27,073 nucleotides of DNA from a virus: positions 1 through 27,073 of the IMG/VR virus record IMGVR_UViG_3300038701_001568; one strand, given 5' to 3'. The notes beneath the pieces are model-generated. The model worked only from the letters and a program-made list of their open reading frames with translations, ran no database searches and was not told the DNA's origin. Of this stretch, positions 14,382-18,269 are shown piece by piece. The position numbers were made by a program, and so were the translations under genes. Within the stretch, counting starts at the first letter, position 1, and each line of letters opens with the position of its first letter.

Positions 14382-15202
14382 TGAATTTGTGCTAAATAAC
14401 CATTTATACTAGATTCTACTTCTGTATCTGCCCCACTTGAAACACATATCACACGAACGTCATAATTTTTAGGCACAATAATACAAGGAGACAATTCCTG
14501 TTGAACTGTTCCAGAATCTGCTGTTGACACCAATCTACTTTTAGTTCTCCACACACCCGTCTGCGATCTCATTTGAAATAAAAACTCTACTCTTCTTGCT
14601 TGCGACCCACTACGACGAACTCCACAATCCCATGATGTAACTATCCAATAATCAGTAGAGCTAATAGACGTTGCACATTTATTAGATTGGTTTCCATCTG
14701 AATTAGCTACTACATGAATCTTTGTTGAATCTTGTGGAACTCCATCAGTAACCGTCCCTCCAGATTCATATACATAAACGTCCCCTTCAAAATCTCCTGT
14801 TCCATTTCCGTCCCCCGTAGTAGTTGCATTAAATATTCTTGTTGCTCTGTATAGAGGTATGTCTAGAGTTACCTCTGTTTGCCCGTTAACCGTAGCATTT
14901 TGTGCTACAAACGTCAGATTACCGTCTGAAATAGTATGACCTTCTATTACTACAGGTTGGTCGTCATTATCATTACTAGAGCTTATTCTATTTATAGTAT
15001 TCCCAGAAGGCATCGTTTCAAAACCTCCTACATCCCATACCATTTCAAAAGAAGTTGTTACTTCCCCATTTTTACCGAATTTCAACAATGATTTAGGCTT
15101 TACAATTACTCTATCTCCATAGTCTCCATAGATTTGATCTATCGCTTGCTTAACTCCTAATGTATAATAATTAGATATGTCCTTTTTCCCGTCTATTATC
15201 AT
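14378..15202 (-). CDS. Tail structural protein, unknown
   Basis: 274 residues. It has a short N-terminal domain (ISNYYTLGVKQAIDQIYGDY), a beta-rich Gly/Thr/Ser-rich middle, and a well-formed C-terminal beta sandwich-like part (SGSQARRVEFLFQMRSQTGV and CIIVPKNYDVRVICVSSGAD). It is coupled by ATGA to both the tape-measure gene upstream and the large tail gene downstream. A distal tail or tail-tip role fits the order tape measure, this gene, hub. The precise role is unknown. Confidence 0.6.
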   Translation of the reverse strand: MIIDGKKDISNYYTLGVKQAIDQIYGDYGDRVIVKPKSLLKFGKNGEVTTSFEMVWDVGGFETMPSGNTINRISSSNDNDDQPVVIEGHTISDGNLTFVAQNATVNGQTEVTLDIPLYRATRIFNATTTGDGNGTGDFEGDVYVYESGGTVTDGVPQDSTKIHVVANSDGNQSNKCATSISSTDYWIVTSWDCGVRRSGSQARRVEFLFQMRSQTGVWRTKSRLVSTADSGTVQQELSPCIIVPKNYDVRVICVSSGADTEVESSINGYLAQIQ

Positions 15203-17247
15203 GTCGAATACCTGTTTATTTTTTTTATGGATATTTGATTGTTTCTTATTTGCCTTAGATTAAACCCGTTTTCGTCTATTTCTGTAATATTAACAGGCAT
15301 TTTCTTTAATTGATCCGCTATAGGTTTAGTGTCTAGTACGTTTATACTCGATCCTCCAGAAGACCCGTTTAAAATATCTGGATGTAACTCTAGGTTATTA
15401 ATTTTACCCATTAAATCGAAGCCATATTTAGAAGTGGCCTTTCTGCTCATTACAAATTCATCTCTTTCCGCTTCGATTAATGTCCCTCCGTTAGAATGAA
15501 GGCTTCCTCCTATCTTACCCCCTTTTTCGAACTTAGGCGCACCTGATAGAACGCTTTTTGCTTGTGCTATATTGGCAGATATTCTTGCGATTCCTACTAT
15601 AAATTGAGCTACCCCAGCAGCTCCAAAAGTAAACGCATTGGCTGGGTTTCCTTCTGATGCTGCGGTTAATGAGGAGATCGCTTTTGCAGTGTCTTGAGCG
15701 ATTTGTATTAACGCTACCGTTTTTCCTAGCTTCGTACCCCTTCCGAATAATGAGATTAAAGAGTTAAATATTCTCTCTTCTTGTGCAATCTTGAAATTTG
15801 CTAACTCTTGAGCTGACTGCTTTTTAAGTTCATTAATCCTTAACTCTTCCTCTAGTTCAGCTTGATCTTTAGTAAATTTTAAATCTAACTCTGTTTGCAA
15901 TCCCTCTTCTAATCGCTCTAATTTTGCGTTTGATATTTCACCTTCTTTTTCGAATAATTCATCCAAATCATCGAATTGCCTAGCTAGTTTTTCAGCGTCT
16001 TTTATGGCTTGTTTTTCATATTCCTCATTCTCTTTTGCAATCCTAGCATCTATAGATGCTTGTCTAGCAGCCTCTTCCGATGCCTTTTTTTGTTCGTTTT
16101 TTAGGATTTGTTGTTCCTGCTCATCTAAGGCGGCCAATATATTTATCTCTTCTTCTTTTAATGCGTTAATTTGCCTATCTATATTTAGCCTGTTCTCTGC
16201 CATTTGAAATCTAGAGATTTCTCCGCTTTCAAATATCTTAATTTGTTCTTCATACAAATTAGCAAGTCTTTCAAGCTCAGCATTAAAACTCTTTTGTCGC
16301 TCTATTGGCTCTTGACTTGATATAGAAGACATAAATTCTTTTACAGCCATGTTAGCCTCATCTATATCGTCAGAATTAAATATTCCGTCAATATATCCAG
16401 AGATTCCAGACTCCACCAGAGAATTGGCGGTATCTAAAAACGTGCTTGTAAGATTTAACAGGCTAAATATAAGACCCTCACTTTCATTTCCTATTTTTAA
16501 TTGAAGGGCTTCAAAACTGTCCCCTATATTAGATATCTTACCAACCACAGTACCAGATATTGCATTCATAGACCCAGAAACGCCTACAACATCTCCAAGA
16601 CCTAATATATACTCCTGAATAGCGTCGCTTGTAAAATCTACCTGCTCTTCTACTCCTTTGAATGTAAACCGAACTTTATCACCTTCTTTCTGAGATCGGA
16701 CACCAAACTCTTTTAATCTTTCAAACTCTCCTACCTGTGCATCAATAATAGCCTCTGCTAATTGGTCAAAATCTTTACCTGTAGATGCTGCTAAGTCTCC
16801 TAGTTTTCCAAGTTCTTTTTGTGTAGGTACAAATCCTTGATTTGCTAGCTTTATAAATGAGTCCGTTAATTGAGATACACTGAATGGTGTAGTCGCTGCG
16901 AATTGCTGTATTTCTCTAAGTGATTTTTGCGCCCTTGAAGAAGAGCCTAGCGTATTAGTTAATACGGCTTCCATTTTCTGGAACTTACCCGTAACGTCTA
17001 CCACTCCTTTAGCGAAATCTAGTATTTGATCCGCTGCAAACGCTGCTATAATAGTAGCCCCGACCTTTTTCATAGTTCCGTTTAAAGAATTAAGCTCTTT
17101 GTCTTGGTCTTTAAACTTCTTATTAGTCTGGTCTACCTCTTTTTGAGTTATGCCATTGGTTTTATTGAAATCCTCAAGCTCTTTATTTGCAGATGCTAGC
17201 TCTTTTTTGTCTACATCATATTTGATGCGAATGTTCTCAGTTGCCAA
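15199..17247 (-). CDS. Tail tape-measure protein
   Basis: 682 residues from a TTG at 17247; there is no Met before residue 59, and the frame has no ATG upstream. Residues about 85-250 match the tape-measure N-terminal domain style (FQKMEAVLTNTLGSS, then REIQQFAATTPFSVSQLTDS and LANQGFVPTQKELGKLGDLA). A long coiled coil runs from about 330 to 480. A hydrophobic Gly/Ala-rich region (about 495-570, KAISSLTAASEGNPANAFTF and AAGVAQFIVGIARISANIAQ) may insert into the host membrane. This protein sets tail length; at about 0.15 nm per residue the tail would be near 100 nm. It follows the tail chaperone, as usual. Confidence 0.88.
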   Translation of the reverse strand: MATENIRIKYDVDKKELASANKELEDFNKTNGITQKEVDQTNKKFKDQDKELNSLNGTMKKVGATIIAAFAADQILDFAKGVVDVTGKFQKMEAVLTNTLGSSSRAQKSLREIQQFAATTPFSVSQLTDSFIKLANQGFVPTQKELGKLGDLAASTGKDFDQLAEAIIDAQVGEFERLKEFGVRSQKEGDKVRFTFKGVEEQVDFTSDAIQEYILGLGDVVGVSGSMNAISGTVVGKISNIGDSFEALQLKIGNESEGLIFSLLNLTSTFLDTANSLVESGISGYIDGIFNSDDIDEANMAVKEFMSSISSQEPIERQKSFNAELERLANLYEEQIKIFESGEISRFQMAENRLNIDRQINALKEEEINILAALDEQEQQILKNEQKKASEEAARQASIDARIAKENEEYEKQAIKDAEKLARQFDDLDELFEKEGEISNAKLERLEEGLQTELDLKFTKDQAELEEELRINELKKQSAQELANFKIAQEERIFNSLISLFGRGTKLGKTVALIQIAQDTAKAISSLTAASEGNPANAFTFGAAGVAQFIVGIARISANIAQAKSVLSGAPKFEKGGKIGGSLHSNGGTLIEAERDEFVMSRKATSKYGFDLMGKINNLELHPDILNGSSGGSSINVLDTKPIADQLKKMPVNITEIDENGFNLRQIRNNQISIKKINRYST

Positions 17248-17251
17248 ATCA

Positions 17252-17530
17252 TTATTTCTTGCGTTTTTCTTGGCGTTGCCTTTCGGCCTCTAAATTCTCA
17301 ACGTAAATATAGTAATTTTCTATCGAAAACGATTTTATTATGTTATACTCCGATGGTTTGTAGTCGCTTACAGACCATAGCTCATCCCTTCCTTTGCTTA
17401 CTTCTTTATCGTGTACCCTTGCTTTATTTTTTGCACGTACTCTTTTTGCGCTTTTGTCAATTTTAAGAATGTTTCTAAATCTTCTTCTGAGATATTCGGC
17501 TGAATTAGATATTTTCTCATGGGCTGATTG
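17252..17530 (-). CDS. -1 frame extension of the tail chaperone (putative frameshift product, GT-like)
   Basis: The -1 frame relative to the chaperone is open from 17557 to the stop at 17252-17254, about 101 codons, and contains no ATG, GTG or TTG. If ribosomes slip at 17530-17536, 92 residues follow residue 158 of the chaperone and give a protein of about 250 residues. The distal part (DELWSVSDYKPSEYNIIKSF, then YYIYVENLEAERQRQEKRKK) looks like genuine protein and ends five bases before the tape-measure TTG. Tail chaperone pairs made by frameshifting just upstream of the tape measure are known (lambda G/GT). The stretch shared by both frames (17398-17530) is long for such a system, so a slip nearer the chaperone stop remains possible. 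Confidence 0.6.
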   Translation of the reverse strand, partial: QSAHEKISNSAEYLRRRFRNILKIDKSAKRVRAKNKARVHDKEVSKGRDELWSVSDYKPSEYNIIKSFSIENYYIYVENLEAERQRQEKRKK

Positions 17531-18003
17531 AAAAAAAAAGCGGTTGCGGGCTGTTTTTTAAACAAACTTATTTTTTCCTCATTATAATCATAGTCATAAT
17601 CAAGTATATTCTCATCCAAATCAAAAAAAACGCAAGAAAACAACCTGTAGTAGGTGTCTGTTTCCATAAATTGAGAAGATAGATTAAGTATAGCGTTTTG
17701 AATGATAATAGATTTTGTTAGATCGCCCTTATTTAACTGCTCTATTGATTCTCTTATTAATTCTTCTAAATCTTTTGACGATATGCTTAATTCAGCCTCC
17801 CTTATGAACTCCATTGTTCTCTTATACCTTAACACAGGCATGTCTAACAGGTTCTTAAACTGATAGTACTCCTTACCATCAATTTCAAAAGCAAACTCTG
17901 TGACTGTCTTATAAGTAGGGTGCAGGCATGTGGCCTTGTTAGGGATGCCGTTTACATCACCTTCTTTGTTAACTTTTCTTATCTCATAGCCAAATAATCT
18001 CAT
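17398..18003 (-). CDS. Tail assembly chaperone-like protein (G-like)
   Basis: 201 residues. It is mostly helical with an N-terminal part (KEYYQFKNLLDMPVLRYKRT) reminiscent of a protein placed before tape measures in Bacteroidota phages. It contains FFF at about 156-158, encoded by a T9C run, and ends TIKK. The gene lies upstream of the tape measure with only the -1 frame extension between them, the position of tail assembly chaperones, which bind and fold the tape measure. ATGA coupling joins it to the upstream membrane gene. The assignment rests on position plus the frameshift structure. Confidence 0.65.
   Translation of the reverse strand: MRLFGYEIRKVNKEGDVNGIPNKATCLHPTYKTVTEFAFEIDGKEYYQFKNLLDMPVLRYKRTMEFIREAELSISSKDLEELIRESIEQLNKGDLTKSIIIQNAILNLSSQFMETDTYYRLFSCVFFDLDENILDYDYDYNEEKISLFKKQPATAFFFNQPMRKYLIQPNISEEDLETFLKLTKAQKEYVQKIKQGYTIKK
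17530..17536 (-). promoter_or_regulatory. Slippery heptamer T TTT TTC for -1 frameshifting
   Basis: In the chaperone frame the sequence reads GCT TTT TTT TTC, so the last seven bases form a canonical X XXY YYZ heptamer (X=T, Y=T, Z=C). It lies inside a run of nine T then C (17530-17539). The -1 frame after it is open for 92 codons with no conventional start codon. A downstream stimulatory structure was not worked out. Confidence 0.5.
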
Positions 18004-18269
18004 CTATTCAATAGTTTATTTACAATGTAGTTAGTACCACACATAGAAAACACCCAAATAGGCAGATATTGAATGGGTAAATCTGTAAAAAAGAACCCTA
18101 TTGATCCGTATAACGAAGTCATACAAGGGGTGCAATCGAATAGAACTTTAGATAGGATAGGGCTTACATCGAATATCCAATCACCAACAAATCCAAGTAT
18201 CATATTACCCCTAGTGCTAGCGTGAACCCCATAAATAACAAGAATGTTTATTATAAATGCTTTTTCCAT
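18000..18269 (-). CDS. Small membrane protein with CTPC motif, unknown
   Basis: 89 residues with three hydrophobic stretches (about 4-16, 46-62, 66-85). Between the first and second lies DCTPCMTSLYGS, a Cys-x-x-Cys followed by a small-residue turn; this arrangement recalls a small conserved membrane protein of Bacteroidota prophages. It lies between terL and the tail chaperone and is coupled to the chaperone by ATGA. A holin-like role is possible, but function is not established. Confidence 0.55.
   Translation of the reverse strand: MEKAFIINILVIYGVHASTRGNMILGFVGDWIFDVSPILSKVLFDCTPCMTSLYGSIGFFFTDLPIQYLPIWVFSMCGTNYIVNKLLNR

Follow-up and report, generated by a model that had tools for sequence, protein, structure and literature searches.

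A run of nine Ts as the probable site of transcriptional slippage in a two-frame tail chaperone gene of Bacteroidota phages

Main finding

Tailed phages of Bacteroidota carry a family of two-frame genes adjacent to the tape measure gene in which the ratio of two tail chaperone products is fairly likely to be set by slippage of the RNA polymerase on a run of exactly nine Ts (T9). This would be the first tail chaperone family that uses a transcriptional frame change, with at least three replacements by a ribosomal one. The frame change that joins G and GT tail chaperones is textbook conserved ribosomal frameshifting. In the present family, programmed transcriptional slippage on T9 is quite probably the main and ancestral route to GT, to judge from comparison of homologues, and side branches would have switched to the ribosomal route.

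The family was found by way of a stretch of viral DNA of 27,073 bases from an IMG/VR virus record, here termed the window. The minus strand carries all genes considered here.

The two-frame gene in the window

The chaperone-like gene, G, is situated between the large terminase and tape measure genes (Table 1). It is single-coding ahead of the T run and double-coding beyond it. A sequence-only reading of the window had described a startless -1 frame that overlaps and extends this gene, and this is confirmed; there is no ATG, GTG or TTG anywhere in the frame. The frame opens a few codons ahead of the T run, which fits a crossing between frames at the run. It was thought to end five bases before the tape measure start, but the gap is four bases (17251-17248). 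The tape measure start is a TTG at 17247, and a TTG start is likewise found in the nearest relative, L001.

The run, GC-TTTTTTTTT-C, is at 17539-17531 on the minus strand, with the C at 17530; neither strand of the window has another T run of this length or longer. Both T TTT TTT and T TTT TTC are in phase inside it. The earlier reading had singled out T TTT TTC, which is indeed in the correct phase but is merely the tail end of the longer T9C run. It had also pointed to an unusually long distance of about 44 codons from the slip site to the zero-frame stop; the distance is long, and the counted value is 43. A second candidate site of that reading, C TTA AAA, lies at 17467-17461 rather than near 17485 and is rejected, as L001 has T TTA AGG there and the motif is not conserved.

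A further run, T8, is found in G about 90 bases upstream of T9 (17630-17623, minus strand; codons Val-Phe-Phe). It is absent from L001, and the -1 frame is closed at that position.

Table 1. Features of the two-frame gene and its neighbours in the window
Feature	Position	Strand	Remarks
Large terminase	19599-18346	-	upstream of G
G-like tail assembly chaperone (putative), zero-frame product	18003..17398	-	201 aa ORF
-1 frame, ORF limits	17557..17252	-	101 codons + stop
Putative slippage site, nine Ts (GCT TTT TTT TTC)	17539..17531	-	T9 in 37/43 homologous sites
-1 part of GT	17539..17252	-	95 aa from FFF on; GT would be 250 aa
Predicted T-like domain	C-terminal half of -1 part 17539..17252	-	
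Double-coding stretch, both frames	17530..17398	-	43 codons
Tail tape measure protein	17247..15199	-	PHROGs tape measure families, best named 6.1e-50

Some other properties of the window were observed. A small membrane protein is encoded at 18000-18269 (minus strand) and has a conserved Cys motif, C-x-x-C-M or similar. Many relatives likewise carry it upstream of G, at a distance of one to a few genes (L001 4385-4678, L017 9603-9935, L015 3641-3955, L038 995-1414 and L041 97-375), and no family was found for this protein. The gene order in 19599-7325 (minus strand) is unusual, with terminase, chaperone, tape measure and further tail genes preceding portal-like and capsid-like genes. A cluster of glycosyltransferase-like, sugar-nucleotide dehydratase/epimerase-like and cupin-like genes (25887-21104, minus strand) adjoins the structural genes.

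Conservation of both frames

By itself the window proves little, because a -1 frame without stops also arises in 10.8% of synonymous shuffles (p 0.11) and the codons that form its T9 have a probability of 0.27 given the amino acids. Relatives were gathered by profile searches of Bacteroidota genomes, most of them from a single order, with G as the only query, and G homologues are present in both phages and prophages. The set comprises 43 sites, some of them closely related to one another; L065, a near copy of L054 from the same genome, is included. Left out were a false hit (L064), a locus at a contig end (L089), a truncated copy (L066) and three G-only paralogues (L048, L094 and L095). L055, which has no T run, is outside the 43-site counts and is treated as a G GGA AAG locus. 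A tblastn search with three G proteins revealed no close relatives in isolated phages.

The nearest relatives, L001, L017 and L015 (60%, 47% and 34% identity in G, respectively), have the layout of the window, with the run at the same codon. At each of the 43 sites the -1 frame has no stop codon between the T run and the end of G, and continues beyond it. The overlap is 29-100 codons (median 65), and 2-69 more codons follow beyond the G stop. The -1 products of homologues have a common conserved protein pattern. Homologues had been proposed as the check on the two-frame gene, in that they might keep the -1 frame and the site or might have a broken frame or a separate start; 43 loci keep both. 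The suggestion that a programmed frame change at the T run fuses the -1 extension to the gene ahead of the tape measure is thus supported across these loci, as is that of a family with a different, long-overlap layout.

The product of shuffle probabilities over 27 of the 43 sites, which are not independent, is 1e-44. By this comparison, the two-frame signal across relatives is far beyond chance, and a frame change at the T run is close to certain. Between the window and L001, synonymous codons are unchanged at 16 of 22 positions in the overlap and at 47 of 90 upstream, a difference in the direction expected of synonymous constraint but of low significance (p 0.10).

In the relatives, eight of 10 ORFs downstream match named tape measure PHROGs. 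One of the other two matches phrog_37298 only, a family that also matches other tape measures here, and one matches nothing. Additional ORFs precede the tape measure gene, separating it from the two-frame gene, in L017 and in some of the prophages.

The G-only paralogues display neither T9 nor a -1 frame extension. They are found as tandem second copies beside a T9 copy (L047/L048, L094/L099 and L077/L095), and some phages thus carry a G-only paralogue.

The putative chaperone proteins

An AlphaFold model of G has a pLDDT of 83. That of the -1 product has a pLDDT of 89 and shows four helices, a predicted helical domain. The G fold matches no known fold, and comparisons with PDB sequences and folds, PHROGs and Pfam gave no chaperone match. 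Weak viral matches include an Arthrobacter phage chaperone (E 0.25). None of these comparisons gave convincing homology to known chaperones. G and GT are nevertheless taken to be putative tail chaperones, on the basis of tape measure adjacency and the two-product design rather than of sequence or fold.

The run of nine Ts

The T run is T9 in 37 of the 43 sites, T10 in one, T7 in three and T6 in two. No T run of nine or more is found in 145,329 flanking bases, and GC content of the flanks ranges from 31 to 60%. As the searches used protein only, run length was not selected for beyond two Phe residues. The codons that build the run go against the genes' own usage, with a product of 1e-45 over sites that are not independent.

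With respect to codon phase, T9 occupies all three positions (31, 4 and 2 sites). Sister loci change phase yet hold nine Ts (L050/L052, and L097 compared with L096/L088/L090). Among phase-2 runs the opening T falls at the wobble position of codons for Asp, Ala, Gly, Ser, Thr, Arg, Pro or Asn, so that its conservation is at the level of DNA. As third codon of the run, TTG, TTA or TTC is used in 30 of 31 sites (TTG or TTA in 25) and TTT in only one, compared with an expected proportion of 0.325 from usage (P 8e-5). Thus TTT, which would lengthen the run, is nearly absent, and the length of nine is both kept and capped.

Downstream RNA secondary structure at the 37 T9/T10 sites used for folding shows no excess (mean z 0.09 for 45 nt and -0.13 for 60 nt), with the exception of L015, which has T9 plus strong downstream structure (z -3.1). 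Nor is there a common upstream nascent-RNA hairpin that could stimulate polymerase slippage (mean z 0.10).

Lineages that have lost T9

Canonical ribosomal heptamers without a long run are found only where T9 was lost. Three loci (L060, L061 and L081) have T TTT TTT and, six bases downstream, a hairpin; in L084 a hairpin accompanies T TTT TTC, and L043 has T TTT TTC with no clear structure. L055 displays G GGA AAG in phase, a lambda-type heptamer, together with a stem. As a group, the six non-T9 members have excess downstream structure (p 0.00025 and 0.001). In a tree built from the portion of G that codes in one frame only, in which deep branches are weak, the non-T9 forms are three lineages nested within T9 clades, and T9 is therefore the likely ancestral state. 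In these side branches T9 appears to have been replaced by ribosomal -1 frameshifting.

Comparison of the homologues shows that the two frames are maintained jointly, that the T run is the crossing point, that its length is exact and that it has been replaced in some lineages.

Transcriptional or ribosomal slippage

Length of the run (nine) is conserved and phase is not, and a stimulator is missing; this fits slippage by RNA polymerase better than ribosomal slippage. On nine As or Ts, slippage by bacterial RNA polymerase is efficient in vivo, and the RNA-DNA hybrid of the enzyme is 9-10 bp (PMC5009743). Tn with n>8 is included in a listing of transcriptional realignment (PMC3711429), and transcriptional slippage in mxiE amounts to 20-30% (PMC4256274). 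The transcriptional nature of the frame change is accordingly graded here as probable.

By the proposed mechanism, T9 would fill the 9-10 bp hybrid and the host RNA polymerase would slip on it, so that some of the mRNAs gain an additional U. Normal translation of the altered mRNAs would give GT, the chain passing through Phe-Phe-Phe into the -1 frame, and the unaltered zero frame would give G. A ribosomal stimulator would be unnecessary. The GT protein is presumably produced. From gene position, G may coat the tape measure and the T part may recruit the tail tube subunit, similar to lambda gpG/gpGT. In a few lineages, a heptamer for ribosomal -1 slippage would have taken the place of T9, in most cases together with a hairpin.

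The alternative that survives best, albeit an unlikely one, is -1 frameshifting of the classical ribosomal type at T TTT TTT or T TTT TTY, in which the extra Ts only provide a second overlapping heptamer. Seven bases in phase suffice for ribosomal slippage, yet the run is nine bases long, capped and present in all three phases. The second heptamer is also a poor one, as with a TTG or TTA third codon, the predominant type, tRNAs are poorly placed for re-pairing on UUU in -1 slippage. In addition, the heptamer-driven Flavobacterium-type family described below fixes phase and varies length. These properties are to be set against an in-phase T TTT TTT or T TTT TTY in every homologue with a run (each T9 includes T TTT TTT), and against the ribosomal appearance of the T7, T6C and G GGA AAG members, most of which have hairpins. 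A missing hairpin is also not proof against the ribosome, since some known tail chaperone frameshifts need no stimulator (PMC5009743). As the conserved property is nine Ts in any phase without a downstream stimulator, the original identification of the site as a ribosomal slippery heptamer is probably wrong.

It is very improbable that the downstream segment is a separate gene with a non-standard start of its own. Some relatives do have ATG, GTG or TTG within the -1 frame, but these are scattered, and none follows the run in the window, L001, L050, L052 or L059; moreover, no stop interrupts the -1 frame anywhere between the run and the end of the overlap, something a separate downstream gene would not require. 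Less probable still is a change at the DNA level, whether through replication slippage as a form of phase variation, through sequencing error or through gene decay: nine-base homopolymers are error-prone in replication and sequencing, but length is identical in assemblies from many genomes, no homologue has G and T in one frame, both frames are open over up to 100 codons, and the T10 of L001 arose via a C to T substitution rather than an indel.

Relation to known systems

Lambda gpG/gpGT (PMC5009743) likewise has a short G and a -1 fused GT encoded immediately ahead of the tape measure, with a startless -1 frame. The slip site here is 29-100 codons ahead of the G stop, whereas that of lambda is at the end of G; the site is a T9 run and in lambda a heptamer; and there is no detectable sequence or fold relation. 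The present gene is perhaps best described as a layout variant, which functions like a G/GT cassette rather than being a typical member.

Shigella mxiE (a T run) and Thermus dnaX (a nine-base run) also yield two-frame products from an A/T homopolymer of nine, and dnaX homologues likewise swap transcriptional and ribosomal solutions (PMC3711429; PMC4256274; PMC5009743). The present family differs in that it concerns phage tail genes, keeps the site across very diverse members and has a long double-coding overlap.

Flavobacterium-type phages (Winoviridae pippi8-1 and lotta8-2; L004, L006, L007, L009 and L014) also have a G with a -1 extension, and their chaperone genes precede a related tape measure. 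Profile comparison reveals no homology of G or T between the T9 family and the Flavobacterium-type chaperones. The Flavobacterium-type heptamer is mostly A AAA AAR in a single phase, and in 21 of 24 it ends 3 nt upstream of the stop codon of G. Length of the A run varies from 6 to 9, the opposite of the T9 family. Several members (L006, L007, L009, L110, L113 and L125) have A9 at the end of G, where polymerase slippage could add to ribosomal slippage.

No description of a tail chaperone produced by transcriptional slippage was found in the open-access literature. Open-access papers that mention both tail assembly chaperones and transcriptional slippage are general reviews or tools. Priority is not certain.

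Implications

T products have been missed in annotation of these genomes because they have no start codon. Slippage at the T run would keep two proteins in one overlapping stretch of DNA. If the proposed transcriptional route is correct, selection would keep the ratio of the two products and not the machinery that produces the ratio, and the family would offer a natural series for testing the rules of slippage in Bacteroidota.
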